DNA of 64,000 bases from Micromonospora inositola. Its GTDB lineage: Bacteria; Actinomycetota; Actinomycetes; Mycobacteriales; Micromonosporaceae. Location: assembly GCF_900090285.1 (NCBI RefSeq), contig NZ_LT607754.1:1488001-1552000 (forward strand). Direction: 5' to 3'. A program made the translations under genes and the position numbers. Of this stretch, positions 7,908 through 35,364 are shown in pieces; positions within the stretch are counted from its first letter, which is position 1; each line of letters starts with the position of its first letter. The notes below the pieces were generated by a model, which did not search any database, was not told where the DNA came from, and worked only from the letters and a program-made list of their open reading frames with translations.

Positions 7908-7988
7908 TCCCTCACATTAGGGAGCGGTCACCACCACCCCAAGGCCAGATCGGGCATTTCAGCCGTTAGGGGCGGCGGTCGGCGGCCG

Positions 7989-19799: not shown

Positions 19800-20377
19800 G
19801 GTCGTGGTGCCGGGGCGCCGGGTTCGACGGCGGCGACCGCGGTGGCGGAGACCGTGAGCCGGGGCAGCCGCGCCCCCAGGGTGCGGACCGGCACGCGGAC
19901 CGTGGCGGTGACACGGTCACCGGTGACGGTGACCGCGACGTCGGCGCCGGGCGGCGCGTACCGCGTACCGGTGGCCGTTCCGTTCTCGCCCCGGGAGGCG
20001 GCGAGCGCCGCCTCCCGGGCCGCGCCCAGGCAACCGCCCCTCGTGGTCACCGCATTGACCGCGGTGAGGCCGGTGAGGAGCAGCAGGACCAGCGCCGGCA
20101 GGCCGGCCGCCAACTCGGCGGTGAACGAGCCACGGTCCGACCCGACCGTCAGCTCGCCGGCCGACGAACGGTGGTCGGACCCCGCCACCGGACGCGCGGC
20201 GCGAGAGCCAGACCCACGGCCGGACGTCGCCCGCGAACCGGGGCGACGGTCGGACGCGGTCGCCAGCGAGTAAGGCTCACCGTCCAGCGCCGCTCGCGAG
20301 CCACGGTCAACGGCTCCGCTCGGCGCCAGGAGGCTGCCCGAGCCACGGTGGTGGCCGGCCGGCCGGCGCCCGGTCAC
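19796..20377 (-). CDS. TadE-family minor pilin with extended N-terminus
   Basis: A 193-residue protein. The core begins at DRGSFTAELAAGLPALVLLLL, the processing and membrane segment typical of TadE pseudopilins, with an external domain after it. The GTG start overlaps the preceding DUF4244 stop (GTGA). That leaves an odd Ser/Arg-rich leader of about 80 residues before the pilin segment. A later in-frame GTG at 20188 would shorten it to about 17 residues and may be the real start. Confidence 0.83.
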   Translation of the reverse strand: MTGRRPAGHHRGSGSLLAPSGAVDRGSRAALDGEPYSLATASDRRPGSRATSGRGSGSRAARPVAGSDHRSSAGELTVGSDRGSFTAELAAGLPALVLLLLTGLTAVNAVTTRGGCLGAAREAALAASRGENGTATGTRYAPPGADVAVTVTGDRVTATVRVPVRTLGARLPRLTVSATAVAAVEPGAPAPRP

Positions 20378-20541
20378 TTCAGTGCCCGGTCGATGACGGC
20401 GGTGAGCGCGGACTGCACGTTGCCGGACGTGAGCACCTTGAGCAGGATGCCGGCGAAGGCCACCGCGGCGAGGGTGCCCACGGCGTACTCGGCGGTGTTC
20501 ATCCCGGCGTCGCCGCGCAGGCGGGCGAGGAGTTTCCGCAT
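20374..20541 (-). CDS. DUF4244 Flp-pilin-like protein
   Basis: A 55-residue protein. It reads MRKLLARLRGDAGMNTAEYA and then a hydrophobic helix (VGTLAAVAFAGILLKVLTSG). The pattern of basic leader, Gly, Met-Asn-Thr-Ala-Glu-Tyr and hydrophobic stretch fits a Flp-type major pilin precursor, with the Glu at position +5 relative to the probable cleavage after Gly13. Ribosome site GAGGAAGGG lies just upstream. Its stop overlaps the tadE start. In M. tuberculosis the same slot is Rv3656c. Confidence 0.88.
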   Translation of the reverse strand: MRKLLARLRGDAGMNTAEYAVGTLAAVAFAGILLKVLTSGNVQSALTAVIDRALK

Positions 20542-20563
20542 GTCGTTTCCCTTCCTCTTAGGG

Positions 20564-21307
20564 TCAGAGCACGTCGCCGAGGACGGCGACGATCACCGGC
20601 ACCAGACCGGCGAGAATGAAGGCGGGCAGGAAGCAGAGCCCCAGCGGCAGCACGATGAGCACGCCCGCCCGGCGGGCCGCCGCCTCGGCCGCGGTGGAAC
20701 GGTCGGCCCGCAGGTCATCGGCGAGACGGGTGAGCGCGCCGGCCAGTGCCGCGCCGCTGTTCGACGAGCGGAGCGCGGCGGCCACCAGGCGCTCCGCGCC
20801 GGGGACGGGCAGCAGCTGCGACCAGGCCTCCGCGGGCTCGCCACCGAGCAGCAGCGTCCGGCCGACCCGCCCGAGCCGGTCGGCCATCGGCCCGCCCAGC
20901 GCCTCGGCGACCGCCAGCACCGAGCGGTCGACCGGCGCTCCGGCGCGGAGGGCCGCCGCGAGCAGGTCGGCGGCGAGCGGCAGGTCGGCGATCTCGCGTA
21001 GTCGGCGGTCCCGGGCGGCTCGCGGCTCGATCCGGCGGAGCAGGCGATCCGCCGCGACCGCGACCAGCACCCCGACGAGCAGGCCCGCCCAGCCGCCGAC
21101 GACGATCGCGGCCGCGACTCCGGCCAGCCCGGCGCCGAGCCGGACGCGGTCCGGCCACCAGAACGGCCGCGTCCGTTCGGCCCCGCCCTCCGACGATCGG
21201 CCCAGCCAGCGGAGACGCCGGCCTGGTCGGACGGCCGGCGAGCCGGCCACGATCACGAGCAGCGCCGCCCCGACCAGGCAGGCCGCCGCGAACGCCTGCC
21301 GGGGCAT
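20564..21307 (-). CDS. TadC-like type II secretion F-domain membrane protein
   Basis: A 247-residue protein from the ATG at 21307, which overlaps the tadB stop by one base (TGATG). It has an N-terminal helix, two more near positions 55-90, the T2SSF cytoplasmic helix bundle (AADLLAAALRAGAPVDRSVLAVAEAL) and two C-terminal helices. With TadB it forms the inner-membrane platform that the ATPase TadA drives. Confidence 0.87.
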   Translation of the reverse strand: MPRQAFAAACLVGAALLVIVAGSPAVRPGRRLRWLGRSSEGGAERTRPFWWPDRVRLGAGLAGVAAAIVVGGWAGLLVGVLVAVAADRLLRRIEPRAARDRRLREIADLPLAADLLAAALRAGAPVDRSVLAVAEALGGPMADRLGRVGRTLLLGGEPAEAWSQLLPVPGAERLVAAALRSSNSGAALAGALTRLADDLRADRSTAAEAAARRAGVLIVLPLGLCFLPAFILAGLVPVIVAVLGDVL

Positions 21308-22635
21308 CAGCCGGCCCGCCCCGGGGCCGCGCCGAGCCGTTCCGCCCACAGCAGGCCGCCGATCTGCAGCGCGACGGCCGCGACCGCGCTGGCGCCACCG
21401 ACCGGCGTGCGCAGCAGCACCGCGACGGGGTCCACCCCGATGGCGTAGCCGAGCCCGATGCCGCCGAGCGGCAGCGCGGCGAGCAGCCAGGCGGTGGCCC
21501 GCGCGCCGGCGGCCTGGGCGGCAGCCGCAGCGAGCCCACGGTCGGCCGCGCGGGCATCGGCCTCGATCCGTTCCAGCAGTTCGGCGAGGGGAGCGCCGGT
21601 GCGGTCGGCCAGCCGCACGGCGGCCCGGGCGAGCTCGGCGACCCGCTCCGGCCGGTCGAGGACCGTGCCTCCCGGCGACCGGGTGCGCCCACCGCCGTCG
21701 GCTGCGGAGCGATGACCGGCGCTGCCGGTCTCGCCATCGGCAGGGGCGGACGCCGGGCCCTCCACCGGAGGCGGCGGGCCCACAACCAGGTCCCCGTCCG
21801 CGAGTAGCCGCCCGGACGCCGCAAGCACCGATCCATCGAGCGTCGACGGCGCGGGCACCGGACCGCCGAGCGCCGGCTGCCCGGGCAACGTCTCGCCGAG
21901 CGTCGACCGCCCGGGCACCAGACCGCCGAACGTCAAGGCTGCCGTCGCCGAACCGCCGAACGTCACGGGCCCCGACGCCGCACCGCCGAGCGCGGCCGTT
22001 ACCGGCAACCCGGCCCGTAGGTCGGCGGCGAGGCCGCCGAGCTGGTCCAGACTCTGCCGCCGGGCCCGCTGCGCGTGCCGTCCGGCATGACGCCGCAGGA
22101 CCGCACGCATCCCCAGCGCGCCGTAGGCGGCGAGAACCACCGCGGCCACCGGGCCGGCCACCCCGGCACCGATCCCGCCGCCCACCACGGCGGCCAGCAG
22201 CACCGTTCGTCCCGGCGCGGATGCCCCGACCCCGCCGAGAGGGAGCCCGTCCCGAGCTGTGGCCGATCGGACCGCCGCCCGCCGGACGGGCGTCGCGGCG
22301 TGGCGGAGGTCGTCGGGAAGCGCGGCACCGGCCGGACGGCGCGGGTCTCTGCGACCCGGCGGCCTGGTCGGGAACGACCGCCCGACGACCGGCGCCCGGG
22401 CACCGCGACGAACCACCGCGGTGCCCGTCGGCAGCCGCCCCCGGTTCGACCGGAACCCCGCGAGGAGGGAGGCCGGAGCGTGCGTCGCACCCATTGTCGG
22501 CGAGCCACCGGGAGCCGACCGGGACGGCGAGCCGAAGACGGCGCGGCGCCGAGCCCGACCGCTGCGCAGCGGCCACACCACCACCGCCGCGGCCGTTACC
22601 AGGAACGCGGTCACCAGCCAGGCCGGGCCGGTCAC
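21307..22635 (-). CDS. TadB-like T2SSF protein with two low-complexity insertions
   Basis: A 442-residue protein; the GTG start at 22635 overlaps the tadA stop (GTGA). The family core is recognisable: membrane helices at about 5-23 and 144-175, the T2SSF start LDQLGGLAADLRAGLPVTAAL (196-216), its continuation VAELARAAVRLADRTGAPLAELLERI (332-357), and terminal helices from 378. Two extra parts are unusual: a basic Pro/Arg/Gly-rich stretch (about 27-140) and a Gly/Pro/Thr-rich insert (217-330) that splits the T2SSF domain. The second contains DNA repeats based on CCGCCGAACGTC. Confidence 0.85.
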   Translation of the reverse strand: MTGPAWLVTAFLVTAAAVVVWPLRSGRARRRAVFGSPSRSAPGGSPTMGATHAPASLLAGFRSNRGRLPTGTAVVRRGARAPVVGRSFPTRPPGRRDPRRPAGAALPDDLRHAATPVRRAAVRSATARDGLPLGGVGASAPGRTVLLAAVVGGGIGAGVAGPVAAVVLAAYGALGMRAVLRRHAGRHAQRARRQSLDQLGGLAADLRAGLPVTAALGGAASGPVTFGGSATAALTFGGLVPGRSTLGETLPGQPALGGPVPAPSTLDGSVLAASGRLLADGDLVVGPPPPVEGPASAPADGETGSAGHRSAADGGGRTRSPGGTVLDRPERVAELARAAVRLADRTGAPLAELLERIEADARAADRGLAAAAAQAAGARATAWLLAALPLGGIGLGYAIGVDPVAVLLRTPVGGASAVAAVALQIGGLLWAERLGAAPGRAG

Positions 22636-23843
22636 GAGGGGCCCGCCGAGCCCGGCCAGACCGCACAGAGGATCGGCGGTACGTCGACCCCACGCTCCCG
22701 CAGCAGCGCCCCGAGCGCCCGAGCGGCGAGACCGAGGCCGCGACCGCGTACCCAGGCCGGCACCACGGTGACGAGCCGGTCCGGCCCCTCGGGCACCAGC
22801 AGGCTGATCGACTCCAGCAGGCGGCCGTCGCTGCCGCGACGGACCTGGAGCAGCACCTGCAGCGCCGCCGCGACCTGGGCGTGCAGCGCGGCCCGGGGCA
22901 GGCCGCCCAGCAGCCCGAGCGCCTCCAGCCGGGCCGGTACGTCCGTGGGGGCGTTGGCGTGCAGCGTCCCCGCCCCGCCGTCGTGGCCGGTGTTCAGGGC
23001 GGCGAGCAGGTCGACCACCTCGCCGCCCCGGCACTCGCCCACCACCAGCCGGTCCGGGCGCATCCGCAACGCCTGCCGGACCAGGTCGCTCAGCCCGACC
23101 GCGCCCGTGCCCTCCACGTTCGAGGTGCGGGCCTGGAGGCCGATCACGTGCGGGTGCACCGGGCGCAGCTCGGCGGCGTCCTCGACGAGCACGATCCGCT
23201 CCGTCGCCGGCACCAGCCCGAGCAGCGTGTTGAGCAGCGTGGTCTTGCCCGAACCGGTGCCACCGGTCACCAGGTACGCCAGCCGGGCCGCCACGACGGC
23301 GGCGAGCAACGGCGCCACCGGTCGGGGCACGGTGCCCTGCCGGACCAGTTCCTCGAGGGTGAACGGCCGTTGCCGGAAGGTCCGCAGGGAGAGGTACGGC
23401 CCGTCGGTCGCCACCGGCGGCAGCACGGCGTGCAGCCGGGTGCCGTCGGGCAGTCGGGCGTCCGCGTACGGGGAGGCGTCGTCGAGCCGGCGGCCGGCCG
23501 CCGCGGTGAGGCGCTGCGCGAGCCGGCGTACGTCCTCGACGGAGCCGATCGGCACCGCCACCTGGCGCAGCCCCAGCCCCCGGTCGACCCAGACCCGGGT
23601 GCCGTTCACCAGCACGTCGGTCACCTGCGGGTCGACCAGCAACGGGGCGAGCGGGCCGGCGCCGACCAGGTCGTCGTGCACCCGATCGGCGATGCGCAGC
23701 AGGGCGGTGTCGCCGAGCACGGCGGCGCTCGGCTCGGCACGTACGGCGGAGACGATGGCGGCGGGGGTGACCGGGGTGGCCGCGGCGGCGAACCTGCGCC
23801 GGACGCGGGCCGCCAGCTCTCCGGAGTCGACGGGGCCGGTCAT
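22632..23843 (-). CDS. TadA/CpaF-like pilus assembly ATPase
   Basis: A 403-residue secretion ATPase. Walker A is GGTGSGKT (194-201), the Asp box VLVEDAAEL follows, the Walker B region is RLVVGECRGGEVVDLL and the His box lies in GAGTLHANAP. It powers assembly of Flp-type pili. ATG start overlapping the ssd-like stop (ATGA). Equivalent to Rv3659c by position. Confidence 0.95.
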   Translation of the reverse strand: MTGPVDSGELAARVRRRFAAAATPVTPAAIVSAVRAEPSAAVLGDTALLRIADRVHDDLVGAGPLAPLLVDPQVTDVLVNGTRVWVDRGLGLRQVAVPIGSVEDVRRLAQRLTAAAGRRLDDASPYADARLPDGTRLHAVLPPVATDGPYLSLRTFRQRPFTLEELVRQGTVPRPVAPLLAAVVAARLAYLVTGGTGSGKTTLLNTLLGLVPATERIVLVEDAAELRPVHPHVIGLQARTSNVEGTGAVGLSDLVRQALRMRPDRLVVGECRGGEVVDLLAALNTGHDGGAGTLHANAPTDVPARLEALGLLGGLPRAALHAQVAAALQVLLQVRRGSDGRLLESISLLVPEGPDRLVTVVPAWVRGRGLGLAARALGALLRERGVDVPPILCAVWPGSAGPS

Positions 23844-24943
23844 GCCGCACCGGTGACCGGCACGCCGGTCAGCTCGCCGACGATCCGCTGGCAGAGCGCG
23901 GCGAGCGGCCCCTTCCCGCCCGCCGCGGGTGCCTCACCCCGCTCCAGCCCCCGGCAGAGCCCGGGCTCGGGGCGGAGGGTGCCGGCGAGCGGCAGGCCGA
24001 GCGCCCGGGCCACCTCGGTGGCCTTGAGCCGGCCCGGGGCTGGGCCGCGCACGATCAGCGCCAGGTCGGCGCAGTGCGGGGCGGCCGTGGCGACCACCCG
24101 GGCCGCGGCGGCGGTGGCCCGCAGCTCGGCCGGTACGACCACCAGGGCCCGATCTGCCGCCTGCAACGCCACAACCGACGCGTCGTCCAGCTGCCGGGGC
24201 AGGTCGACGACCACGACATCCCGGCCCCGGCGGGCGGCGTCGACCGTGGCGGCCATCGCCTCGGCGGGCAGGTGCAGCGGGTCGCCGCGATCCCAGGAGA
24301 GCACGACCAGGTCGCCCCGGCTGGGCAGGGCCCGGACGAGCGAGGGTGGGTCGACCCGTCCGTCGGTGCCGGTGAGCCCGGGCCAGCGCAGGCCCTCCAG
24401 CTGTTCCCAGCCGAGCACCAGGTCGAGCCCGCCGCCCAGCGGGTCGGCGTCCACCAGGAGGGTGCGCAGCCGAGCCCGGGCGGCGGTGACGGCGAGGCCG
24501 CCGGCGAGCACGCTGGCACCCGCGCCGCCCCGCCCGCCGAGCACCGCGAGGATCCGTGCCGCGCCGCCGGTGGCCGGGCCCAGCGCGCACTCGGCGAACC
24601 GGTCGACCAGCCACGGCTCGGCGGCGGGCAGCGTGGCCACATGCTCGGCCCCGATCAGCTCGGCGATCTCCGCGCCCGGGTCGAGGTGACCGGAGCGACC
24701 CACCAGCACCGTCCGGGACCGGCGTGGCAGCCGGGCCCGCAGGCAGGCCTGAGCCTGGTCACTGCCGACCAGCACGAGCGGGGCCGGCAGCCAGCGGGCG
24801 CGGGCGGCGGCGGGGTCGGCGGCGAGTTCGACCTCGGTGCCACCCGCCGCGGCGAGCCGGAGCAGCTCGTCGAGCAGGTCGCCGTCGGCGGTGACCAGCA
24901 GGGGAAGGCGGCGGTGCGGTGGGAGCGGGGTACGGGGCGGCAT
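23840..24943 (-). CDS. CpaE/Ssd-like MinD-family localisation protein
   Basis: A 367-residue protein from the ATG at 24943, chosen for GGAGG five bases upstream. The N-terminal receiver-like domain is degenerate. The C-terminal MinD/ParA-type ATPase domain shows a deviant Walker A (LGGRGGAGASVLAGGLA, lacking the lysine) and VDADPLGGGLDLVLGWE. In M. tuberculosis the homologue (Rv3660c, Ssd) affects septum placement; CpaE localises pili in Caulobacter. It is first in the seven-gene tad operon, each gene of which is coupled or nearly so. Confidence 0.9.
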   Translation of the reverse strand: MPPRTPLPPHRRLPLLVTADGDLLDELLRLAAAGGTEVELAADPAAARARWLPAPLVLVGSDQAQACLRARLPRRSRTVLVGRSGHLDPGAEIAELIGAEHVATLPAAEPWLVDRFAECALGPATGGAARILAVLGGRGGAGASVLAGGLAVTAARARLRTLLVDADPLGGGLDLVLGWEQLEGLRWPGLTGTDGRVDPPSLVRALPSRGDLVVLSWDRGDPLHLPAEAMAATVDAARRGRDVVVVDLPRQLDDASVVALQAADRALVVVPAELRATAAAARVVATAAPHCADLALIVRGPAPGRLKATEVARALGLPLAGTLRPEPGLCRGLERGEAPAAGGKGPLAALCQRIVGELTGVPVTGAA

Positions 24944-25109
24944 GGCGGCCTCCAGCGGTCGGGCTCGAACGTGCTGCCGTCGAGCCTGCCGCCGACCGGA
25001 CCGGTCCGGAGCCCCAGGCCGGTCGCCTGTGGACAACTTCGACCGCTGTGGACAACGCCCGCGACAGATCTGGATCTGCTATGGCGCGTCGAGTCACTAC
25101 CCTTCAGGG

Positions 25110-25754
25110 ATGAGCGATCAAGGTTGGTTGGCTGACACCCGGACCTCCTATGACACGGTCGCGGTCAGCTATGCCGACCAGGTGCGCGACGCTCTCGCGG
25201 TCGAGCCCTACCTAAGAGGGAGTCTGGCGTTGTTCGCCGACCTGGTTCACGCCGCCGGCGGCGGGTCGGTGGCGGACGTGGGCTACGGACCAGGACACGT
25301 CACCGCCCACCTGCGCAAGTTGGGCGTCGACGCCTTTGGCATCGACCTTTCACCCGCGATGGTCGACGTGGCCCGGCGTGACCACCCCGGCCTGCGGTTC
25401 GAGGTGGGCTCGATGACGGACCTGGACCTCGCCGACGCCTCGGTTGCCGGCCTGCTCGCCTTCTGGTCGCTGATCCACGTCCCCGACGACGCGGTCTCCA
25501 GGGTTTTCGGCCACTTCCGGCGAGCGTTGCGTCCCGGCGGACCGCTGCTGCTCGGCGTTCACGTCGGCGACGGATCGCGGCTGAAAACACAGGGCTACGG
25601 TGGCCACCCGATGAGGGTCTACGTCCACCGCCGTCAGCCTGGCCAAGTGGCAGCCTGGCTGCGCGACGCCGGATTCACCGTCGAGGCTCAGATGCTGCTC
25701 GATCTGGACGAGAGCGTTCCAGGGGCCGTCCTCTTCGCGCGCCGCCAGCCCTAG
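25110..25754 (+). CDS. SAM-dependent methyltransferase (class I)
   Basis: A 214-residue protein. Motif I is ADVGYGPGHVTAHL, with Tyr where Cys is usual; FGIDLSPAMVDVARRDHPGL carries the acidic ribose-binding residue; RALRPGGPLLLGVH is the post-motif. No substrate can be deduced. It includes rare codons such as CTA-AGA, more than backbone genes, consistent with its place at the edge of an accessory island. The ATG lies close to GGG without a strong ribosome site. Confidence 0.87.
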   Translation: MSDQGWLADTRTSYDTVAVSYADQVRDALAVEPYLRGSLALFADLVHAAGGGSVADVGYGPGHVTAHLRKLGVDAFGIDLSPAMVDVARRDHPGLRFEVGSMTDLDLADASVAGLLAFWSLIHVPDDAVSRVFGHFRRALRPGGPLLLGVHVGDGSRLKTQGYGGHPMRVYVHRRQPGQVAAWLRDAGFTVEAQMLLDLDESVPGAVLFARRQP

Positions 25755-26151
25755 CTGCAGGGCGGGATGGACTATCGCAACCACCGACGGACCGCGGGCC
25801 GCCGGCGCAGCCCCGGCCATCCTGGAGCCGGGGCGCCCCCGCCGGAGGCGCAGTAACCGCAACCCGGCGACCCCCACCAGGCCGCCGGCGCAGTCGGCGT
25901 GCGCGCCCCCACGCCGCACGGGTCCTGGCGGCGCGGCCCGGCCGGCTGCCGGTCTACCGCCTCACCAATCAACAGTCTGTCGTGCTGCGGCGGCCCTCCG
26001 GGCTTTCCGCTTTCCGCGCCAGCCGCCGGGCGTTCTGCGTGGCTGGAGCGGAGCGGCAGCGGAGTGCAGGCCGCGCGCCCAGGCGACGGCGCGTGCGGCC
26101 GCTCAGGGCCTCCTTGAAGACGCTCAGAAACTTTGAACGCTGGCAGCCGGC
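25755..26151. other. Gene-free segment left of the IS-like repeat
   Basis: About 400 bases with no convincing coding frame; short open frames here have poor codon bias. Several short inverted repeats occur, for instance CCCCGGC/GCCGGGG near 25815-25833. If the 52-bp repeat at 26152 is an IS end, this stretch would be what remains of the element interior; I recognise no transposase in it. Confidence 0.4.
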
Positions 26152-26203
26152 TGTCCGGTCTCAGGACCTGCGTGACATATCGGCATCAGGACCTGGGTGA
26201 CAC
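26152..26203 (-). repeat. 52-bp inverted repeat, left copy (IS-end-like)
   Basis: Read on the minus strand it begins GTGTCACCCAGGTCCTGA and matches the copy at 27609-27660 at 44 of 52 positions without gaps, in opposite orientation. Internally it holds two 20-base units of the form TGTCAC.CAGGTCCTGA, as expected for transposase binding sites at the ends of IS481-like elements. The family name is from memory of such ends. Confidence 0.7.
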
Positions 26204-26314
26204 TCCGCCCTCCGTAGCACTGGCCGACGCTTGGCCAAGGTCGACGAGCTAATCCGAACCCGCGGCGACGGATGGAAGGAACTCATCGGCCTCGACCGTC
26301 GCCCGTCCGTGTAA
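26204..26314 (+). pseudogene. 3' fragment of a disrupted gene
   Basis: Immediately next to the left repeat an open frame with coding character runs to a TAA at 26312: its end reads LAKVDELIRTRGDGWKELIG and LDRRPSV. It has no start, ribosome site or domain, and an in-frame TGA lies inside the repeat at 26198. I read it as the end of a gene cut by insertion of the element. The original gene is not recognised. Confidence 0.5.
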
Positions 26315-26420
26315 CGCGGGCCGCTCGATCCAGTCCACGGCAGCACGTCCGCGGTCACCGCCGCTGCCGTATGCCAGAATGCCCCCAACCTGGAGCAGAG
26401 CTGGCAGAACGGGCAAGCCG

Positions 26421-27602
26421 ATGACGACGAGCAGAGCAGCCAAGCTGCTGCGGAAAGCCGAGGACCCGCAGCGGGAGACGTTCCTGGAACTCTTCTCCGA
26501 CCTGGTGCTTGTCGTCGCGCTCGCTCAGCTCTCGCGCGGCCTGGCCGAGGATCTCGGGTGGAGCGGTGCCTTCCGGACGCTGGTGCTGTTGGGGGCCATG
26601 TGGTGGGTCTGGTCCAGCACCGCGTGGCTAACCGACCGGACGGACCCGCAACAACCGGCAATCCAGGCACTGGTCATCGCGACCATGGTCGGCACCCTGG
26701 TGATGGCGGCCGCGGTGCCCGAGGCATTCGGCGACACGGGCCTGATCTTCGCGGGCGCCTACGTCGCCATCCAGCTCGGCCGCGGGCTCGTCCTCGTGGC
26801 CTTTCTGCGTGGCCACGAGCTGCAGCGCATCGGCGTGCGCGGGCTGTTCTGGTACGGCCTGTCGGCGCTGCCGTGGATCGCGGGGGCGCTCGTGCACGGT
26901 ACGGCGCGTGGCGCGTTGTGGGCACTCGCGGTGGTCCTTGACCACACGGCAGGCAGAATCGGCTTCCCCACCCCGGGGGCGGGCCGTACGCCCGGCCAAG
27001 ACCTTGTGATCTCGGGCGAGCACATTGCCGAGCGCCACCGGCAGCTCTTCATCATCGCGCTCGGCGAGCTGATCCTGGTTACCGGACTGGCGCTGAGCAG
27101 CAGCGGCTTCGCGCCTGATGAAACCGCAGCGTTCGCAGTGTCGATCGCGACCACCGTGCTGCTGTGGCGGATCTACATCTACCGCTCTGGGCAAGTCCTG
27201 GCGGAAGCGATTGCCGTGTCCGCCGACCCGATCCGCCTCGCCCGATCGACGTCATACGCCCACCTGACCATGGTGGCCGGCGTGGTCGCTGCAGCCGTCG
27301 GCGCCGAACTTGTCATCGCCCATCCACTCGGGCACACCCCACCGGCCTGGATCGCCGTCATCCTCGGCGGACCCGCGCTGTACCTGGCCGGGCGCGCCCG
27401 CTTCGAGCACGCGGTATTCGGCCGCGTGTCCCGGTCCCGACTGATCGGCGTCCTTGCCCTGGCCGCCCTGACACCGGCGATGCTCCCCCTGCCGCCAGTC
27501 GTGGTCGCCGCCGCTGCTGCCCTCGTCCTGACCGGGATCGCCATATCCGACGCAGCCCGCGCCCGCAGACGCCCGCCCGAGCCGCCGTCACCACCTCGCT
27601 AG
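26421..27602 (+). CDS. ltrA: Low-temperature-requirement A (LtrA) family membrane protein
   Basis: About 393 residues with roughly ten membrane helices. The LtrA hallmark ETFLELFSDLVLVVALAQLS lies at the N-terminus, and ISGEHIAERHRQLFIIALGE in the middle carries the conserved EH..ER..LF..I.LGE motif. LtrA was named from a Listeria mutant unable to grow at low temperature; its molecular role is unknown. The ATG at 26421 fits the family start; an ATG 14 codons upstream is possible. The gene lies between two 52-bp inverted repeats, the right one beginning 7 bases after its stop codon, so it may have moved as a cassette. Confidence 0.85.
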   Translation: MTTSRAAKLLRKAEDPQRETFLELFSDLVLVVALAQLSRGLAEDLGWSGAFRTLVLLGAMWWVWSSTAWLTDRTDPQQPAIQALVIATMVGTLVMAAAVPEAFGDTGLIFAGAYVAIQLGRGLVLVAFLRGHELQRIGVRGLFWYGLSALPWIAGALVHGTARGALWALAVVLDHTAGRIGFPTPGAGRTPGQDLVISGEHIAERHRQLFIIALGELILVTGLALSSSGFAPDETAAFAVSIATTVLLWRIYIYRSGQVLAEAIAVSADPIRLARSTSYAHLTMVAGVVAAAVGAELVIAHPLGHTPPAWIAVILGGPALYLAGRARFEHAVFGRVSRSRLIGVLALAALTPAMLPLPPVVVAAAAALVLTGIAISDAARARRRPPEPPSPPR

Positions 27603-27608
27603 CCGGAC

Positions 27609-27660
27609 GTGTCACCCATGTCTTGAGACTGTTCTGTCACGCAGGTCCTGAGACCCGACA
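27609..27660 (+). repeat. 52-bp inverted repeat, right copy (IS-end-like)
   Basis: It begins GTGTCACCCATGTCTTGAGA and mirrors 26152-26203 (44/52). It contains two imperfect 20-base direct repeats, TGTCACCCATGTCTTGAGAC (27610-27629) and TGTCACGCAGGTCCTGAGAC (27635-27654), 25 bases apart. The arms point away from ltrA, as if the body of each element lay outside the ltrA segment. Confidence 0.7.
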
Positions 27661-27675
27661 ACGCCGGCAGCCGGC

Positions 27676-27704
27676 TTGTCCTGTCACGGGACATGCTTGA
27701 CGCT
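27676..27704 (-). repeat. Further IS-end-like motif facing the right repeat
   Basis: On the minus strand it reads GTCAAGCATGTCCCGTGACA followed by GGACAAG, another copy of the TGTCA..CATGTC..GA(C/G)ACA pattern. With 27609-27660 it makes a pair of facing ends only ~95 bases apart, like an element whose interior has been deleted. Unclear beyond that. Confidence 0.45.
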
Positions 27705-27935
27705 CGCGGCCCACCTGATGCCCGTCATGATCCTCAAGAGGAGCCGCGGAGGCCCTCACGGACCGCGACAGGGGCGCGCATCGCGGCAGAAGCGTGCACC
27801 CGCCCATAAGCGCGGGCTCAAAAGACGGCCGGAAAGTTTGGAACGAGTGGTCTGCGATGCGGTTCGGCTGAAGCAGCGTTTACCGGGCGTTCGAGGGGCG
27901 CGACGCGGCGTCGTCAAGGTGGAGAGCCAGAGCCG

Positions 27936-28892
27936 TCACTCATATCCCATGGCCGGGATGACCTTGCCGAGTGCTTCTTCGATGAACTCGCGGGTTTCGT
28001 CGTCGAATTGGTCGTTGCGGTTCGTCAGCTTGTGCGACTGAAACGTTGAAGGGGTGGCGAAATCGTCGACGTCGAGCCGTTCGAACAGGGCTCGGCGCTG
28101 CCCGGGCCAGTCGGCTGCGAGATCTTCTGCTTTCACCTCGATGTATCGCCTGCCCGTCAGGTCAACCGTGTTCTTCCAGGTGAGCCATCGGTGGTAGACC
28201 GGCTTGAGGTAGGCGAGCGCGCCGTCGACGGTGGGCGGTGCCCATGGCTGGGCCAGGTGGGATGCGAGCACTGAGACCGGGTGACGCTTGATGTGCACGA
28301 TGGTCGCTTCGGGGACCAGTTCCCAGAGGAACTCCATGCACAGCAGGTTGAACGGTGTCTTCTCGCACCAGGTCGGCTTGCCCGCGTCGGCGGCTGCTCC
28401 GCCGAACATGGTGTCGATCAGGCCCCGCAAGATTCCGAGCAGTTCGCCCCGGTCGCTGAAATACCTGGGAAGTACCCGCCGGCGGCTCAGCGGCTCGAAC
28501 GGCCCGGCAGGCCGGTCGGCGTTCCCGAAGCCTTCCGCGGGCGCAGGTTCGTCGTATGTGTACGCGATCAACTGCGGCCAGAGCTGTTGCACCGCGTCCC
28601 GGTAGCGCCGCTCGCCGACCAGCTCGGGAACGGTTTTGCCGCGATCGTCGCGCCGGCCGGGCACTCGTACGGTGAGGAAGTCGCTCAGCCGGTGCAGGGC
28701 GTCCTCACCGACGGTGGGGTCGTATCGATCGGTGAGCGCGTCGGCCAGGTCCCGCAGGCCACCCGGGTCGATGAGAAACCGGGTCTCCATGGGAATCCGA
28801 TGGATCAGCGGATGTTCGCCGATGATGTCGGCGATCCGTGACGTTCCCGAACGACCCGTACCCGCAACGAAGATCGGTGAGGGGAAAGCCAT
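27936..28892 (-). CDS. PAPS-dependent sulfotransferase family protein
   Basis: A 318-residue protein. The 5'-phosphosulfate loop is FVAGTGRSGTSRIADIIGEHP at the N-terminus, and the 3'-phosphate-binding region IVHIKRHPVSVLASHLAQPW lies around residues 205-225. The family transfers sulfate from PAPS to hydroxyl or amino groups of small molecules or glycans. It stands alone in the island, so the acceptor is unknown. Its DNA is less GC-biased at third positions than the backbone genes, suggesting transfer. The start follows the P-loop position of homologues. Confidence 0.85.
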   Translation of the reverse strand: MAFPSPIFVAGTGRSGTSRIADIIGEHPLIHRIPMETRFLIDPGGLRDLADALTDRYDPTVGEDALHRLSDFLTVRVPGRRDDRGKTVPELVGERRYRDAVQQLWPQLIAYTYDEPAPAEGFGNADRPAGPFEPLSRRRVLPRYFSDRGELLGILRGLIDTMFGGAAADAGKPTWCEKTPFNLLCMEFLWELVPEATIVHIKRHPVSVLASHLAQPWAPPTVDGALAYLKPVYHRWLTWKNTVDLTGRRYIEVKAEDLAADWPGQRRALFERLDVDDFATPSTFQSHKLTNRNDQFDDETREFIEEALGKVIPAMGYE

Positions 28893-29381
28893 GGCGAGCA
28901 GTCAAACTCTCAGCCAGGCGCCTGTGCAAGCCATTTATCCCCTTCACCCGCTGCTACGGGCCGGACCCGCACCCGCCACGCCGAGTGCGTGCCGGACGGC
29001 CGCCTCCAACAAGCGAGCAACGAATTATCGAAGCTTCCCAACGCGCCGCATCCCTCACACACTGATGCACTGATCTCGGCATGTCCGGACACTCCGAGGG
29101 CTGCTGCCGGGTGGTCACGCTCCGCAGCGCGCGGATCGCGGCAGAAGAGCACACCTGATCTTGGACTAGGCAACGTTGCAGGGGTCGCTTTCTGACGCCG
29201 GATCTACGTAGCCATTGATCTAGGCGGCCGGTCACCTCGGCACGGGCCCAATGGCCATGCGGCGGCGTGGATGGCATGTCGCCGATCGGACAAGGATCAT
29301 CCCTCTATGGATCATCGAGTTCGTCGATTCTGGCAAGGGAGGAACGCGCTACGAAGCCGAATCTGTTCTGGAGGAGCTGTC
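28893..29381. other. Gene-free segment between sulfotransferase and methyltransferase
   Basis: About 490 bases of lower-GC DNA with no convincing gene. At 29133-29157 a stretch containing ATCGCGGCAGAAG resembles 27776-27800 on the other side of the sulfotransferase gene, possibly the relic of a repeat. The promoters of both divergent genes must lie here. Confidence 0.45.
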
Positions 29382-30221
29382 ATGAGCGACGTAATCGATG
29401 CGGCCGAGGCCGACCGCGCCCTCAAAGCCAAACACCGTGCTATGTGGGCCCTCGGCGACTACCCCGCCGTGGCCACGGAAATGATTGCGACGTTAGGTCC
29501 GATCCTCGTGGACAGCTGCGACGTACTTCCCGGCGACCGCGTCCTGGACGTGGCCGCGGGAACGGGTAACGCCGCCATCCCCGCGGCGCTCGCCGGCGCC
29601 GACGTGGTGGCCTGCGACCTCACACCCGAGCTGCTCGACACCGGCCGGCGCCAGGCCGAGCGGGCAGGCGCCAAACTCGAGTGGCGTCAGGCCGACGCCG
29701 AGGCGCTGCCGTTCCCCGACGGCGAGTTCGACAGGGTGCTGTCCTGCGTCGGGGTCATGTTCGCACCTCATCACCAGGCGAGCGCGGACGAGCTGGTCCG
29801 CGTCTGCCGTCCGGGGGGAACCATCGGCCTGCTGAGCTGGACGCCGGAGGGCTTCATCGGCCAGATGTTCGCGACGATGAAGCCGTACGCCGCTCCACCC
29901 CCGCCCGGCGCCCAGCCCCCGCCGCTTTGGGGCAGCCCGGACCACGTTCGCTCACTGCTCGGCGATCGGGTAACCGATGTCGCTGCGCGCCGACAGACAG
30001 TGAGGATCGACCGCTTCCCGACACCGGAGGCGTTCCGCGACTACTTCAAGTCCAAGTACGGCCCAACCATCGCGGTGTACAAGGGCATCGCCGAGGATCC
30101 CGAAATGGTTGCCGCGCTGGACCGCGATCTCGCCGATCTCGCGCAGCGCCACGATCAAGGCACCAAAACCACCGTCATGGACTGGGAGTACCTGCTGCTC
30201 ACCGCCCGCAAACGGATCTAG
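29382..30221 (+). CDS. SAM-dependent methyltransferase, UbiE/arsM-like (class I), with TTA codon
   Basis: A 279-residue protein. Start ATG with GGAGGAG six bases before. Motif I VLDVAAGTGNAAIPAAL, acidic loop VVACDLTPELLD, motif ADAEALPFPDGEFDRVLSCVGVMF and CRPGGTIGLLSWTPEGF identify a methyltransferase_11/25 protein. The substrate is unknown. Codon 38 is TTA (29493-29495), the rarest leucine codon in such genomes, read in streptomycetes by the developmentally regulated bldA tRNA. Expression may thus be tied to development, as for many accessory genes. Confidence 0.88.
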   Translation: MSDVIDAAEADRALKAKHRAMWALGDYPAVATEMIATLGPILVDSCDVLPGDRVLDVAAGTGNAAIPAALAGADVVACDLTPELLDTGRRQAERAGAKLEWRQADAEALPFPDGEFDRVLSCVGVMFAPHHQASADELVRVCRPGGTIGLLSWTPEGFIGQMFATMKPYAAPPPPGAQPPPLWGSPDHVRSLLGDRVTDVAARRQTVRIDRFPTPEAFRDYFKSKYGPTIAVYKGIAEDPEMVAALDRDLADLAQRHDQGTKTTVMDWEYLLLTARKRI

Positions 30222-30480
30222 CGACGCCGACCGGACGCATCAGCCGAGGAGGAAATTGCGTTTCGGCTGTCGCGTCTCGCCGGTCTACCCCTCGCCAAGT
30301 CCGACGGGTCGGCCGAATTTGCGGCGTGGCGGACCCAGTCTTGTCCAGCTAGCAACCGGCCGGGCCGCGCCCATGAGGCATCCGGAGCGCGCCATCGCAC
30401 TCACATCGGCTATGTATGCAGCTGGGTCAGCCGGCTGCAACGCGCAGTCGTCCGAGCCGGTGCTCCCAGCCGGCGCGGTG

Positions 30481-31023
30481 GATGCCGATGAGAGTGGATG
30501 GCAGGCCGCGGTGCGTGAGTACGACCGTCGTGTCGTCGCCGTCAGGGGTCTCGTCTTTCGTGACCGGGTCGGGCGCCCGCTGCGCCGGTCGAACTTCCGC
30601 CGCCGGGTCTGGCTGCCTTCGCTGGTCCGCGCTGGCCTGCTCGGCCAGGTCGCCAATACCGGCCCGCACCGGTACCGCGCTGGCTGGCCCGACCGGGAGG
30701 GCGTCGAGTGGTCAGCCGAGTTCACCACCGAGCGGGAAGCGGTCGCATTCGTGGCGGCCAAGGCCGTAGGCGGGATGCGCTTCCACGACCTGCGGCACGC
30801 GTATGCCACATGGCTGGTCACCGACGGCGTTCCGATCAACCTGGTGCAGCGGGTGATGGGCCACGAGCAGGCGTCCACGACGCTCAACCGTTATACGCAC
30901 ACCCCGGACGACTATGCGGCCCGCGTCCTGGCGGCCTTCGACAGCTCCGCTGCCTCTTTGCTGCCTCCCGCCCGGGAAACGCCCCCGGAAAGCACCCTCG
31001 ACGGGGACGGACAGGACCTGTGA
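30481..31023 (+). pseudogene. Truncated tyrosine-recombinase integrase (C-terminal catalytic half)
   Basis: The frame carries VFRDRVGRPLRRSNFRRRVW, then RFHDLRHAYATWLV (the HxxR box) and VMGHEQASTTLNRYTH (His and catalytic Tyr), the C-terminal half of integrases found in actinomycete integrative elements. The N-terminal core-binding domain and the first catalytic Arg are absent. Upstream sequence in the same frame (from about 30240) has no integrase similarity. It is therefore a remnant. No excisionase, rep or tRNA att site was seen next to it. Confidence 0.75.
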
Positions 31024-31052
31024 CCTGCGGCGGAGTGCTCAGCCGGAGAAGG

Positions 31053-31118
31053 GACGACCCCCGTCGGGGGGAGACGGGGGTCGTCGGAGGTTCGGCTCCG
31101 GGGGGGTTGAGCCGAACC
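31053..31118. terminator. Two strong hairpins in tandem
   Basis: First hairpin 31053-31085: 13-bp perfect stem GACGACCCCCGTC/GACGGGGGTCGTC with a 7-base loop. Second hairpin 31089-31118: 10-bp perfect stem GGTTCGGCTC/GAGCCGAACC. Together they insulate the island end from the HAD gene and would stop transcription in both directions. Confidence 0.75.
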
Positions 31119-31349
31119 CACTCAGCGGTCACGGGGGGTGCAACCGCCGAGGGCTTCCAGGGGACGAGACGTGAACTCTCGTCGCGAGCACAAGCATGCC
31201 GCAATGGACCGGTATACGTCGAGTGGCGTGCGCTCCACCCACCGCCGATTTGTGTTCGGAGAGTGTGACTGTCGTCACTCTCGGCAGAGGTGCGAGCGCC
31301 CGTGCCGACGGGGAGGCCCCGGGCACCCGTCGGCGGCGGACCGTCGGGC

Positions 31350-31355
31350 TACACT
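31350..31355 (+). promoter_or_regulatory. Candidate -10 element of a leaderless HAD-IB transcript
   Basis: TACACT lies 8 bases before the GTG start at 31364, with no ribosome site between. This spacing would place the transcript start at or next to the start codon, the common leaderless arrangement in actinobacteria. No clear -35 is seen. A hairpin GAGAGTG/CACTCTC is at 31259-31282. Confidence 0.45.
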
Positions 31356-31363
31356 TTCGCGCC

Positions 31364-32167
31364 GTGGGCCGAAGCGCCGCTTTCTTCGATCTGGACAAGA
31401 CCGTCATCGCCAAGTCGAGCGCCCTGGCGTTCGGTCGGCCGTTCTACCGGGACGGCCTGATCACCCGGCGAGACGTGGTCAAGTCGGCGTACGCGCAGCT
31501 GATGTTCCGGCTGGGCGGCACCGACGAGCAGACCATGGCCCGGACCCGGGACTACCTGGCCACGCTCTGCAAGGGCTGGCAGGTGGAACAGGTCCGCCAG
31601 ATCGTCGCGGAGACGCTCCACGACCTGATCAACCCCTACGTGTACGCCGAGGCGGCCGCCCTCATCGAGGAGCACCAGGCCGCCGGGCGGGACGTCGTGC
31701 TGGTCTCCGCCTCCGGCGAGGAGATGGTCCGCCCGATCGGTGCGCTGCTCGGGGTGACCGATGTGATCGCCACCCGGATGGCGGTCGAGGACGGCCGGTA
31801 CAGCGGCGAGGTCGAGTTCTACGCGGCCGGCCCGAGCAAGGTCGACGCGGTCGGCGAGCTGGCCACGGAGCGCGGCTACGACCTGGCCGACTCGTACGCC
31901 TACTCCGACTCGTACAGTGACCGGCCGCTGTTGGAGTGCGTCGGGCATCCCAGCGTCGTCAACCCGGACCGGGCGCTGCGCAAGCTGGCGGTGGAGAACT
32001 CCTGGCCGGTCCTGGAGTTCCGGCACCCGGTCCCGCTGGGTCGGCGGCTGCGCGAGCGGCCCGCCGTGCCGGTCGCCGCGGCGGCGCTCGGCGTCGGCGT
32101 CGGGGTGGCCATCGGCATCGCCTGGTACGGCCGGCACCGCCGCGGCAAGGTCACCCCGGTCGCCTGA
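31364..32167 (+). CDS. HAD-IB family phosphatase with C-terminal membrane segment
   Basis: A 267-residue protein from the GTG at 31364. HAD motif I is FFDLDKTVI (nucleophile Asp, then DKT), motif II is in VLVSASGEEMV and the acidic motif IV is YSDSYSDRPLL. The C-terminus has one membrane helix (VPVAAAALGVGVGVAIGIAW) with a basic tail, so it probably sits on the membrane. Relatives (SerB-like, Rv3661) hydrolyse phosphomonoesters; substrate unknown. In M. tuberculosis this gene directly follows ssd, here separated by the island. Confidence 0.9.
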   Translation: MGRSAAFFDLDKTVIAKSSALAFGRPFYRDGLITRRDVVKSAYAQLMFRLGGTDEQTMARTRDYLATLCKGWQVEQVRQIVAETLHDLINPYVYAEAAALIEEHQAAGRDVVLVSASGEEMVRPIGALLGVTDVIATRMAVEDGRYSGEVEFYAAGPSKVDAVGELATERGYDLADSYAYSDSYSDRPLLECVGHPSVVNPDRALRKLAVENSWPVLEFRHPVPLGRRLRERPAVPVAAAALGVGVGVAIGIAWYGRHRRGKVTPVA

Positions 32168-32218
32168 CCGGAGGCACCCACCGCCGGGAAAGTCGCGGAA
32201 ACGGCGGCGGCGGGCGGA

Positions 32219-32965
32219 TCAGGACGCGGCGAGCACCTCGTCGCCGATGAGCTCGATCTGGGCGGCGCCGACCTCCACTGCCGTCAGGTAGTGGCGGAGC
32301 CAGGAGCGGAGCCCGTCCGGGGTGCCGGTGGCGAAGGCGCCGGCCGCTCCGACGTACTCCGGTTCCCGCTCCTGGTGGCCGACGTCGACGGCGACCAGCC
32401 CGCGCGGGTCGAAGCCGGTGGAGAGCAGCACCAGCCGGGCGGCGGCCCGGGCCACCACCCCGGACGGCCCGGCGAAGGGGCGCAGGTTCAGCAGCTCGCC
32501 GTGCACGACGGCGGCGAGCACCAGCGGGGAGACCTTCGTGCCACCGGCGACCAGGCCGGCCAGCCCGTCGAGGCGTGCCGCGACCACCGGGTCGGCGACC
32601 GGCCGGCCCAGCTCGGGCTCCGCCACGACGTCGCGGGCGGCGAGGACGTGCAGCTTGGCGAGGGCCTGGCGCGGCGCCTTCGGCCAGAGTTCGCTCAGCC
32701 CCGGCAGCGCCCCGGCGACCCGCAGCGCGCCCTGGAGCACGGGGTCGGTGACCGTGCCGGCCCGGACCGCCTCGCGCTCGTGCGTACGCCCCTCGAGTGC
32801 GGCGCTGGCCACCGCGGACCGGAGGCTGACCTCGGCCGCGACCTGGCCGCCGTGCCGGCGCAGCGCGCGGTGGCGGTGCGCCTGGTCGACCCGGTCGCGG
32901 GCGCGCTCGACGGCGGGCGCGATGTCGGCGAGCGCGAGCAGCGGGGCGAGCGGATCGGTGGTCAC
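32219..32965 (-). CDS. Fic-fold protein with degenerate active site (Rv3662c-like)
   Basis: A 248-residue protein, GTG start. Its middle reads ELLNLRPFAGPSGVVARAAARLVL (157-180), aligning with the Fic motif HPFx(D/E)GN(G/K)R but with Arg for the catalytic His and PSG for the nucleotide-binding GNG. An upstream SAALEG (54-59) fits the (S/T)xxxE(G/N) inhibitory-helix motif. Fic enzymes normally AMPylate proteins; this one should lack that activity. Databases may call it an oxidoreductase or hypothetical protein. Convergent with the HAD gene, conserved backbone. Confidence 0.7.
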   Translation of the reverse strand: MTTDPLAPLLALADIAPAVERARDRVDQAHRHRALRRHGGQVAAEVSLRSAVASAALEGRTHEREAVRAGTVTDPVLQGALRVAGALPGLSELWPKAPRQALAKLHVLAARDVVAEPELGRPVADPVVAARLDGLAGLVAGGTKVSPLVLAAVVHGELLNLRPFAGPSGVVARAAARLVLLSTGFDPRGLVAVDVGHQEREPEYVGAAGAFATGTPDGLRSWLRHYLTAVEVGAAQIELIGDEVLAAS

Positions 32966-33261
32966 CCCGCCACGCTAGCGACCCGGACGCCGGGCCCCAC
33001 CGCCAGCCGCGGAGAACGCGACGCGAACCACCCCTCAGATCGCCATGCTGCGCGCCCTGCCACCCGCGGGCGGCGGCGCTGCCGGCGGTGGGAGGGGACT
33101 GCTTCTCCTCGGAGGCGTCAACACGGGGCACGGCCCTGCATCTCGGCGCGTGCCGGAAGCCGCTGGGCGCGCCACGGCTGCCCGGGCTGTCGCGGGCGCG
33201 CGGCGCCGCGACTAACCTCAGCCGGTAGGAGACGCAGGTCACGCGACGAAGGAGTCACCGC

Positions 33262-33345
33262 ATGAGCGAGCGAAGCGAGCGAATCATCAGGCTCAGAGCG
33301 GAGAAGCCTCATGGCGTCGGCGAGCGAAGCGAGGCGACGGCATGA
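33262..33345 (+). CDS. 27-residue leader ORF coupled to acs
   Basis: ATG at 33262 with a perfect ribosome site GAAGGAG seven bases ahead. It encodes [20 protein letters not shown] then ERSEATA, and its TGA overlaps the acs ATG (ATGA, 33342-33345). The DNA is built from GAGCGAAGCGAG repeats, a palindrome-rich repeat I recall as common in Micromonospora. It is either a true leader peptide that feeds ribosomes into acs or an extragenic repeat that happened to bring a start codon. Confidence 0.5.
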
Positions 33346-35306
33346 GCGAGGCATTGGCCAACTTGTTGAACGAGACGCGCCAGTTCCCGCCGCCGGCCGA
33401 GCTCGCCGCGAACGCCAACGTCACCGCCGAGGCGTACGCCGAGGCGGCGGAGGACCGGCTCGGCTTCTGGGCCCGCCAGGCCGGACGGCTGGCCTGGGCG
33501 AAGCAGTGGGACCAGGTGCTCGACTGGTCGAACCCGCCGTTCTCGAAGTGGTTCGTCGGCGGGCAGCTGAACGTGGCGTACAACTGCCTGGACCGGCACG
33601 TGGAGGCCGGTCGGGGCGACAAGGTGGCGATCCACTGGGAGGGCGAGCCGGGTGACACCCGCACCCTCACCTACGCCGACCTGCACCGGCTGACCTGCCA
33701 GGCGGCGAACGCGCTGACCGAGCTGGGCGTGGTGGCCGGCGACCGGGTGGCGATCTACCTGCCGATGATCCCGGAGGCGGCGGTCGCGATGCTGGCCTGC
33801 GCCCGGATCGGCGCCACGCACAGCGTGGTCTTCGGCGGCTTCTCCGCCGACGCGCTGACCAACCGGATCCAGGACGCCACCGCCAAGGTGGTGATCACCG
33901 CCGATGGCGGCTACCGGCGGGGCAAGCCGTCGGCGCTGAAGCCGACGGTGGACGAGGCGGTGGCGAAGTGCCCGTCGGTGGAGCACGTGCTGGTGGTCCG
34001 CCGCACCGGCGAGGAGGTCGCCTGGTCGGCGAAGGACCACTGGTGGCACGAGACGGTGGAGACCGCCTCCCCGGAGCACACCGCGCAGCCGCTCGACGCC
34101 GAGCACCCGCTCTTCATCCTCTATACCAGCGGCACCACGGCCCGGCCGAAGGGCATCCTGCACACCACCGGCGGCTACCTCACCCAGACGTCGTACACCA
34201 CGCACGCGGTCTTCGACCTCAAGCCGGAGACCGACGTCTACTGGTGCACCGCCGACATCGGCTGGGTGACCGGGCACTCCTACATCGTTTACGGCCCGCT
34301 TTCCAACGGCGCCACCCAGGTCATGTACGAGGGCACCCCGGACACCCCGCACAAAGGCCGGTTCTGGGAGATCGTCGACAAGTACCAGGTGACGATCCTC
34401 TACACCGCGCCGACGCTGATCCGCACCATGATGAAGTGGGGCGAGGACATCCCCGCCGGCTACGACCTGTCGTCGCTGCGCCTGCTCGGCAGCGTCGGTG
34501 AGCCGATCAACCCGGAGGCGTGGATCTGGTACCGGCAGCACGTCGGCCGGGGCGAGCTGCCGATCGTGGACACCTGGTGGCAGACCGAGACCGGCGCGAT
34601 CATGATCTCCCCGCTGCCCGGCGTCACCGCGGCCAAGCCGGGCTCGGCGATGACCCCGCTGCCTGGGATCGTTTCCGACGTGGTGGACGACCAGGGCCAG
34701 TCGGTGCCGAACGGCGGCGGTGGCTACCTGGTGCTGCGCGAGCCGTGGCCGTCGATGCTGCGCACCATCTGGGGCGACGACAACCGGTTCATCGAGACCT
34801 ACTGGAGCCGGTTCGCGGGCATGTACTTCGCCGGCGACGGGGCGAAGAAGGACGACGACGGGCACATCTGGCTGCTCGGCCGGGTCGACGACGTGATGCT
34901 GGTGTCCGGCCACAACATCTCCACCACCGAGGTGGAGTCGGCGCTGGTCAGCCACCCGTCGGTGGCGGAGGCGGCGGTGGTCGGCGCGACCGACCCGACC
35001 ACCGGCCAGGCCATCGTCGCGTTCGCCATCCCGCGCGGCACCGCCGACACCGCTGGCGAGGCCGGCGAGCAGCTGATCGCCGAGCTGCGCAACCACGTGG
35101 CGAAGACGCTCGGCCCGATCGCGAAGCCCCGGCAGATCATGCTGGTGCCGGAGCTGCCGAAGACCCGCTCCGGCAAGATCATGCGCCGGCTGCTGCGGGA
35201 CGTGGCGGAGCACCGGTCGCTCGGCGACGTGACCACCCTCCAGGACTCCTCGGTGATGGAGCTGATCTCCTCCGGGATGGGTGGCGGCAAGTCCGACGAG
35301 GACTGA
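33342..35306 (+). CDS. acs: Acetyl-CoA synthetase (acetate-CoA ligase)
   Basis: A 654-residue ANL-superfamily enzyme that makes acetyl-CoA from acetate, ATP and CoA through acetyl-AMP. The A3 loop is [11 protein letters not shown], the A5-A8 region has [10 protein letters not shown] and [20 protein letters not shown], and the A10 lysine lies in [14 protein letters not shown], the site acetylated by protein acetyltransferases. Normal length for Acs. Its ATG overlaps the stop of a small ORF that carries the strong ribosome site. Backbone gene (Rv3667 and SCO3563 positions). A strong terminator follows. Confidence 0.97.
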
Positions 35307-35329
35307 GGCCCGACTCTCGGATCATCTCG

Positions 35330-35364
35330 TGGGCGGGGGCGGCACAGCGTGCCGTCCCCGCCCA
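35330..35364 (+). terminator. acs terminator hairpin
   Basis: A 16-bp stem with one G-T type mismatch, TGGGCGGGGGCGGCAC and GTGCCGTCCCCGCCCA, around AGC, 24 bases after the acs stop. Confidence 0.8.

Follow-up and report, generated by a model that had tools for sequence, protein, structure and literature searches.

Positions 26152 to 27660 (plus strand) of the window, that is, of the whole 64,000-nucleotide stretch of the Micromonospora inositola genome analyzed here, hold a 1,509-bp element of the IS481 type that encodes no transposase, carries ltrA as a passenger gene, and is delimited by TGT...ACA tips, inverted arms, and a target duplication. As judged from sequence comparisons, this is very probably a nonautonomous cassette that was moved in trans, landed at a set distance from a tail sequence, belongs to a class of elements that form tail-first arrays, and originated by deletion of a transposase gene. 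In such a scheme, an IS481 transposase supplied by a related element would cut at the TGT/ACA tips and join the cassette to DNA at a fixed spacing, in most cases 27 nt, from the tail that ends a noncoding module of a pSAM2-type element. Every new copy would arrive at the same place and copy the same 15 bp, producing arrays with the newest element beside the tail; in the window, a B-type element would already have been present when the ltrA cassette entered between it and the tail. The cassettes themselves would come, at least in part, from elements that consisted of a transposase and one passenger and then lost the transposase.

The left end (26152 to 26203, minus strand) and the right end (27609 to 27660, plus strand) were delimited by inverted-repeat comparison, and the latter is also found in other genomes of the genus. 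The sequence-only reading of this region had described a pair of repeats resembling IS ends, and recomputation returned the same figures: 44 of 52 positions identical in an ungapped alignment and 1405 bp between the arms. Each arm contains two 25-bp units of the form TGTCAC.CA.GTC.TGA, spaced 25 bp. The 52-bp arms are the longest inverted repeat between positions 24000 and 30000 of the window (runner-up, 34 nt with 79% identity). A 22-base consensus of the unit, searched throughout the 64 kb with up to 6 mismatches, matched the four arm sites (0, 1, 3, and 4 mismatches) and, with 6 mismatches each, three places elsewhere. The right arm begins, as had been noted, seven bases past the ltrA stop codon (27600 to 27602). 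The inner edge of this end, CTAGCCGGAC (27599 to 27608, plus strand), contains the TAG and adjoins several right arms with different cargo.

Flank comparison revealed, immediately outside the arm pair, a target duplication that the earlier reading had not reported. It consists of ACGCTGGCAGCCGGC at 26137 to 26151 and ACGCCGGCAGCCGGC at 27661 to 27675 (both on the plus strand), a 15-bp direct repeat with 14 of 15 bases identical. According to the accessible part of PMC10045372, duplications in the IS481 family range from 2 to 15 bp, and the one in the window falls within this range. The TGT...ACA termini and the inverted repeats are likewise those of IS481 elements. Together with a passenger in place of a transposase (the absence of the latter from 26152 to 27660 was confirmed), the IS-type inverted ends and the target duplication are the hallmarks of a mobile insertion cassette.

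Two options had been left side by side in the earlier reading, a passenger cassette without transposase and two IS remnants around a preserved fragment. Chance enclosure of ltrA by two separate truncated, outward-facing IS elements would agree with the units, which read outward from the spacer, and with the B-type end found just to the right of the right arm. However, the duplication lies outside the arm pair, the TGT/ACA tips are the outermost ones, and in the complete element at locus L080, a transposase gene is enclosed by this left end and this right end, placed in the same order; chance enclosure is accordingly very improbable. The passenger option draws on the duplication around the arm pair, on an autonomous, transposase-bearing counterpart bounded by the same ends in a genome of the same genus, on the occurrence of these ends with other genes, and on the existence of element-free sites. 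The presence of the same ends on many unrelated single genes, mostly without a transposase, thus identifies an IS481-type mobile insertion cassette and not two IS remnants. Paired units 25 bp apart could also bind a dimeric regulator, but these ends also occur around a transposase gene and around genes with no relation to ltrA, and they come with target duplications, so the notion that the arms are paired operator sites for an ltrA regulator can practically be dismissed. The arms are not peculiar to this genome, as the right one is present in 66 of the 121 genomes of the genus (at an E value of 0.001), and ltrA was not observed at this site in any relative.

The cargo gene ltrA (26379 to 27602, plus strand) encodes a 407-aa protein of the low temperature requirement A family (PF06772, E value of 3e-89). 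In view of this match, identification with the LtrA protein of group II introns, a different protein, was rejected. A broken gene end had been claimed between the arms; an open stretch with a gene-end-like peptide is indeed present at 26204 to 26314 (plus strand), ends with ...LAKVDELIRTRGDGWKELIGLDRRPSV, and is common to several other ltrA cassettes; no intact donor gene for this peptide was found among the fetched loci. A second copy of ltrA and the right end, without the left end, is found in the same genome at 6463095 to 6464509 (98% identity over 1,415 bp). Cassette searches of this 6,707,994-bp single-contig genome detected DNA similarity in 20 places of 790 bp or more, counting the window, and the one-unit pattern (up to 2 mismatches) was found in 21 places, compared to 1 for the reversed control. 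Other arm pairs in this genome enclose a 156-aa protein that matches no Pfam family (L032) and a distant ltrA flanked by a perfect duplication of 15 bp, TGAGGCTCATCATCA (L033); L035 has a left end, a GNAT gene, and a partial right end. In a tree of 51 LtrA proteins (52 found, with one duplicate row dropped), the arm-bearing genes are scattered, and well-supported branches force the two-arm label to change at least 10 times; since the rows without arms include loci cut short, gains and losses are indistinguishable in this tree.

Near-identical TnpB-like genes (Cas12f1-like TNB and OrfB_IS605 domains) are found directly behind two different ltrA genes, at L036 (3065 to 4519) and L040 (3741 to 5195). 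In L036, this gene is located inside the cassette, between ltrA and the right end.

The autonomous counterpart, 2,504 bp long and bounded by the same ends, comes from genome G026, of the same genus; its two genes encode a transposase of 615 aa and a WapI-like protein of 153 aa. It is present there in five copies, four identical ones of 2,504 bp and one of 2,503 bp beside a contig end; a perfect 15-bp duplication flanks four of the five, and the copy at L079 has none. The transposase encoded at L080 (2038 to 3885) is assigned to IS481 by the NCBIfam model NF033577 (298.2 bits, with a cutoff of 224) and retains the DDE-type residues. The transposase of the autonomous element starts at position 46 of that element, inside its left end. 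At the corresponding position, the window cassette carries the relic GTG ACA CTC CGC (M T L R), followed by a stop (26197 to 26217, plus strand), and only an N-terminal piece of the transposase, adjoining a passenger, is left at L112 and L129. The relic and these pieces point to an origin of the cassettes, at least partly, by transposase deletion from elements with a transposase and one passenger. No close relative of the G026 transposase was found in the genome of the window, where the best matches are 29 and 31% identical; this makes present-day movement there unlikely, and the cassette is probably dormant in its current host.

Residues 360 to 600 of the L080 transposase form a long C-terminal extension with what appear to be three repeats of ~60 residues, one of which shows a weak match to the C-terminal part of the Mu transposase. 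This extension is a candidate for the part responsible for site choice.

An arm model (score limit of 8, with a top control score of 1.4) gave 270 matches, from which 57 elements were extracted. Transposase similarity is absent in 47 of them, and LtrA is the cargo in 17, an overrepresentation, because the elements were gathered by likeness to the right arm of the window and the sample is no census. The other cargo is diverse, with nearly all remaining genes being singletons by blastp. Its Pfam names include GNAT, NUDIX, MOSC, MFS, CMD, Sel1, UPF0167, Imm33-like, SUKH-4, WapI-like, DUF4259, DUF4265, DUF6928, and a weak GyrI-like match, and many cargo genes have no Pfam match. Part of this diverse cargo sits in sister end types, here termed B and C, and each of the three end types is accompanied by an IS481-type transposase gene (L080, L089, and L103). 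When named genomes were scanned for the exact pattern, 14 stretches emerged, belonging to Micromonospora species, an unclassified Micromonosporaceae bacterium, Salinispora mooreana, and Actinoplanes aureus. One 3.1-kb member, at L138 in G142, also carries an IS110 transposase gene; at this locus, several elements that differ in end type form an array, in which ltrA occurs twice.

Directly to the left of the cassette and its duplication lies the landing module, module A (25761 to 26136, plus strand; delimited by repeat comparison), which is cut at its left side in the window and measures ~540 bp when whole, as in L074 (1718 to 2256). No coding sequence is apparent in it, and it is strongly folded (minimum free energy z score of about −7 against 40 shuffles). 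Near its left end, the module contains an inverted stretch of ~150 bp. An Rfam search of positions 25500 to 28200 gave no match to an RNA or attC family up to an E value of 1, and comparison of module A with phages gave no match. The module may be a single-strand origin or some other cis-acting site. Its tail has the common form CTTGAAGACGTACAGAAA; the window carries the variant CTTGAAGACGCTCAGAAA, with two changes (26113 to 26130, plus strand), and the tip of the cassette is 21 nt further on, which is a counterpoint to the 27-nt distance that prevails elsewhere.

When up to 2 mismatches are allowed, the motif GACGTACAGAAA occurs within 90 nt outside 36 of the 194 unique arms, compared to 15 of 3,880 random stretches. 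This mismatch limit was chosen because at 3 mismatches (44 arms) several matches are neighboring arms. Within the same limits, the motif is missing from 158 arms, many of which abut another element. The distance from motif to tip in the 36 arms is exactly 27 nt in 23 cases, 27 to 28 nt in 28, and 21 to 30 nt in 34. Both orientations are found at 27 to 28 nt (14 left-type and 6 right-type ends). The five G026 copies stand 27, 27, 27 (in the opposite orientation), 27, and 25 nt from the tail, three loci of Actinoplanes aureus show 27 nt, and the duplicated 15 bases vary from locus to locus. A tail scan of the window's genome gave four exact copies and the window variant (a tally that omits five further matches with 1 or 2 mismatches), and four of these five tails have an element while one is bare. 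The tail is followed by ordinary DNA in L074, L059, L061, L062, L064, L067, L068, L092, and other loci, and in L088, L089, and L090 a B-type end comes directly after it, with no A-type element. On the Streptomyces NBC_01343 plasmid, 27 nt separate the tail from an element whose transposase is 58% identical and which has a 14-bp flanking repeat; the plasmids of Streptomyces NBC_01006 and S. goshikiensis carry this tail bare. A relative in Mycobacterium gordonae (L191), with 37 of 50 positions matching in its inverted ends, shows no tail motif and, on inspection of its flanks by eye, no clear duplication; it is a case that speaks against universality.

Module A and a first element are found together in many loci, which could mean that one ancestral module-plus-element unit spread by recombination along with its tail and that there is no set-distance landing at all. 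L079 and L080 share a left flank, and the lack of a duplication at L079 fits recombination; L214 and L215 also resemble near-copies of one site. Such a spread as the general explanation is unlikely, as three end types in both orientations and with different 15-mers stand at the set distance, the same element occurs at three different tails with three different duplications (L080, L091, and L215), and the distance recurs in Streptomyces. With the tips left unmoved, at least 13 of 15 flanking bases are identical in 24 of 56 arm pairs, including 16 of the 33 with two strong arms, compared to 5.4% of shuffled pairs, a rate due to the many targets that share GCCGGC. In these 16 elements, positions 1 to 15 are conserved in 14 to 16 of 16 and position 16 is conserved in 9 of 16. 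When small tip shifts are allowed, 38 of 57 elements pass (25 of them perfectly, and two of the 38 resembling arm repeats) and 19 do not. The duplication is a perfect 15-mer at L080, L091, L215, and L033.

The left-end remnant of a second element, of sister end type B (27677 to 27790, plus strand), is next in the array, so that the order in the window is tail, ltrA cassette, 16-nt spacer, and B-type remnant. Tip-to-tip gaps of up to 70 nt number 37 in the collection, of which 12 are exactly 15 nt and 25 are 14 to 17 nt. At L103 and at L105, three successive elements are separated by identical 15-mers. Should every insertion be measured from the tail, a new element would have to enter beside it and repeat the same 15 bp. 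Among the 57 elements (a set in which the boundaries of L079 are misadjusted), 7 of the 8 that bear a transposase are located beside the tail motif, versus 21 of the 49 others. A hand-made tip pattern for the next element, intended to reach beyond the arm model, was a poor one and matched at 2 of 118 arms.

Near-identical short repeats are also what a tyrosine recombinase of the integron or XerCD-like kind would use as spacers, and integrase genes are found a few kilobases from module A in several loci; the IS481 gene would then be just one more cargo. But the spacer sequence varies between arrays while its length stays near 15, each of the three end types has its own IS481-type transposase gene, and the long inverted ends, with their paired units, are of the kind found on IS481 elements. 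Array building by such a recombinase therefore seems improbable, and insertion by an IS481 transposase beside the tail is preferred.

The surroundings of module A were compared in the window and in 18 hand-picked loci of up to 20 kb (L203, which has no tail, was omitted). A RepSA gene is present on the same stretch in all eight bare-tail loci, with matches to PF20199 at an E value of 1e-142 or better in the three tested; in four of these loci, it is less than 1 kb away and followed by an integrase gene, and in the other four, it is at ~6.9 to 8.7 kb. The presence of RepSA on the stretches of all bare tails suggests that the tail belongs to integrative conjugative elements of the pSAM2 type. 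None of the 10 filled-tail loci has RepSA on its stretch (within about 10 kb), and several retain an integrase gene or a fragment of one. Filled tails thus appear to sit in elements whose RepSA was lost or never present nearby, and the link to living conjugative elements comes from the bare sites. The integrases near module A match PF00589, and a fragment of such a tyrosine integrase, its C-terminal part only, is found at the right side of the accessory region of the window (30109 to 31023, plus strand; E value of 8.8e-13), with relatives near module A in L201 and L211.

Two elements of the actinomycete integrative conjugative element (AICE) type, near the record ends of G000 (C1:12737, L200, and 6703039, L199), have 100% identical RepSA proteins, 79% identical integrases, and bare tails. 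In L200, a 1006-aa NACHT-domain protein, possibly the product of a defense gene, is encoded next to module A (6644 to 9664).

The features of this system have partial parallels in known ones. Tn7 inserts at attTn7, at a set distance beside the sequence that is recognized and not in it. The cassettes likewise land beside and not within the tail, but with a single IS481 transposase and in both orientations. Integron gene cassettes are tandem one-gene units that enter beside a fixed site, each with an attC site, by means of an integron integrase. The arrays described here resemble them in the tandem one-gene units beside a fixed site and in the kinds of cargo, and differ in having transposon ends and a duplicated spacer on each unit. 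IS231, which gives its name to one mobile insertion cassette, belongs to the IS4 family. That cassette, MIC231 of Bacillus cereus, and the qnrD mic element share with the one in the window two IS ends, a passenger gene, no transposase, a target duplication, and presumed movement in trans; in the accessible part of PMC3913671, their ends are of the IS231 type or short (24 bp), with 2-bp duplications, in contrast to the IS481-type two-unit ends, 15-bp duplications, set landing site, tandem stacking, and wide cargo pool seen here. TnRErm46 (PMC6794481) and ISArsp12 (PMC6305408) are actinobacterial and combine an IS481-family transposase with passenger genes; unlike the window element, they have their own transposase and 6-bp duplications at CTAG, as far as the accessible text of these papers goes. 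ISArsp8, an IS481-family element of the Arthrobacter plasmid pA58H2, has TGT ends of ~50 bp with two ~25-bp units and a 15-bp repeat, and probably belongs to the same subgroup as the window element, although no passenger is reported for it in the accessible part of PMC6305408.

IS481 passengers, 15-bp duplications with two-unit ends, and mobile insertion cassettes are therefore each known singly, and their combination is unreported in the accessible portions of the literature searched. No paper on IS481 in Micromonospora and no report of IS481-type cassettes without transposase, of their set-distance landing on AICE-type elements, or of arrays made in this way was found in the open-license PMC literature, to which the search was limited, so that absence from print is weakly shown. 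Tentatively, and with doubt slightly outweighing confidence, the Micromonosporaceae, and probably Streptomyces, might be credited with an IS481-type analogue of the integron, in which one-gene cassettes with transposon ends enter a fixed distance away from an attI-like AICE tail, each time with a copy of the same 15 bp, and newest-first arrays ride between strains on the AICE. If true, this would explain the spread and multiplication of single genes such as ltrA in a genus known for natural products and would represent a second route to gene-cassette arrays, one that needs no integron integrase. It also raises the question of how an IS481-type transposase of 615 aa, with its long C-terminal extension, chooses a site 27 nt from a motif while being indifferent to the sequence that it cuts.

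On a larger scale, the conserved blocks at 22600 to 25085 and 31049 to 31500 are separated by ~6 kb in the window and by 191, 398, and 914 bp in G015, G004, and G025, respectively. By this comparison, the region between them is an accessory insertion and probably what is left of an integrated element. A tRNA search of positions 20000 to 36000 found none, and the accessory region is therefore not located at a tRNA gene there. The region contains a 670-bp methyltransferase unit (25087 to 25756), whose right edge cuts module A and which has relatives with 91 to 96% identity at other places in G010 and G014. A sulfotransferase unit (27904 to 28972) has relatives with 92 to 95% identity at other places in other genomes, and a direct repeat (27766 to 27800 and 29121 to 29155; 27 nt, 85% identity) lies on either side of it.
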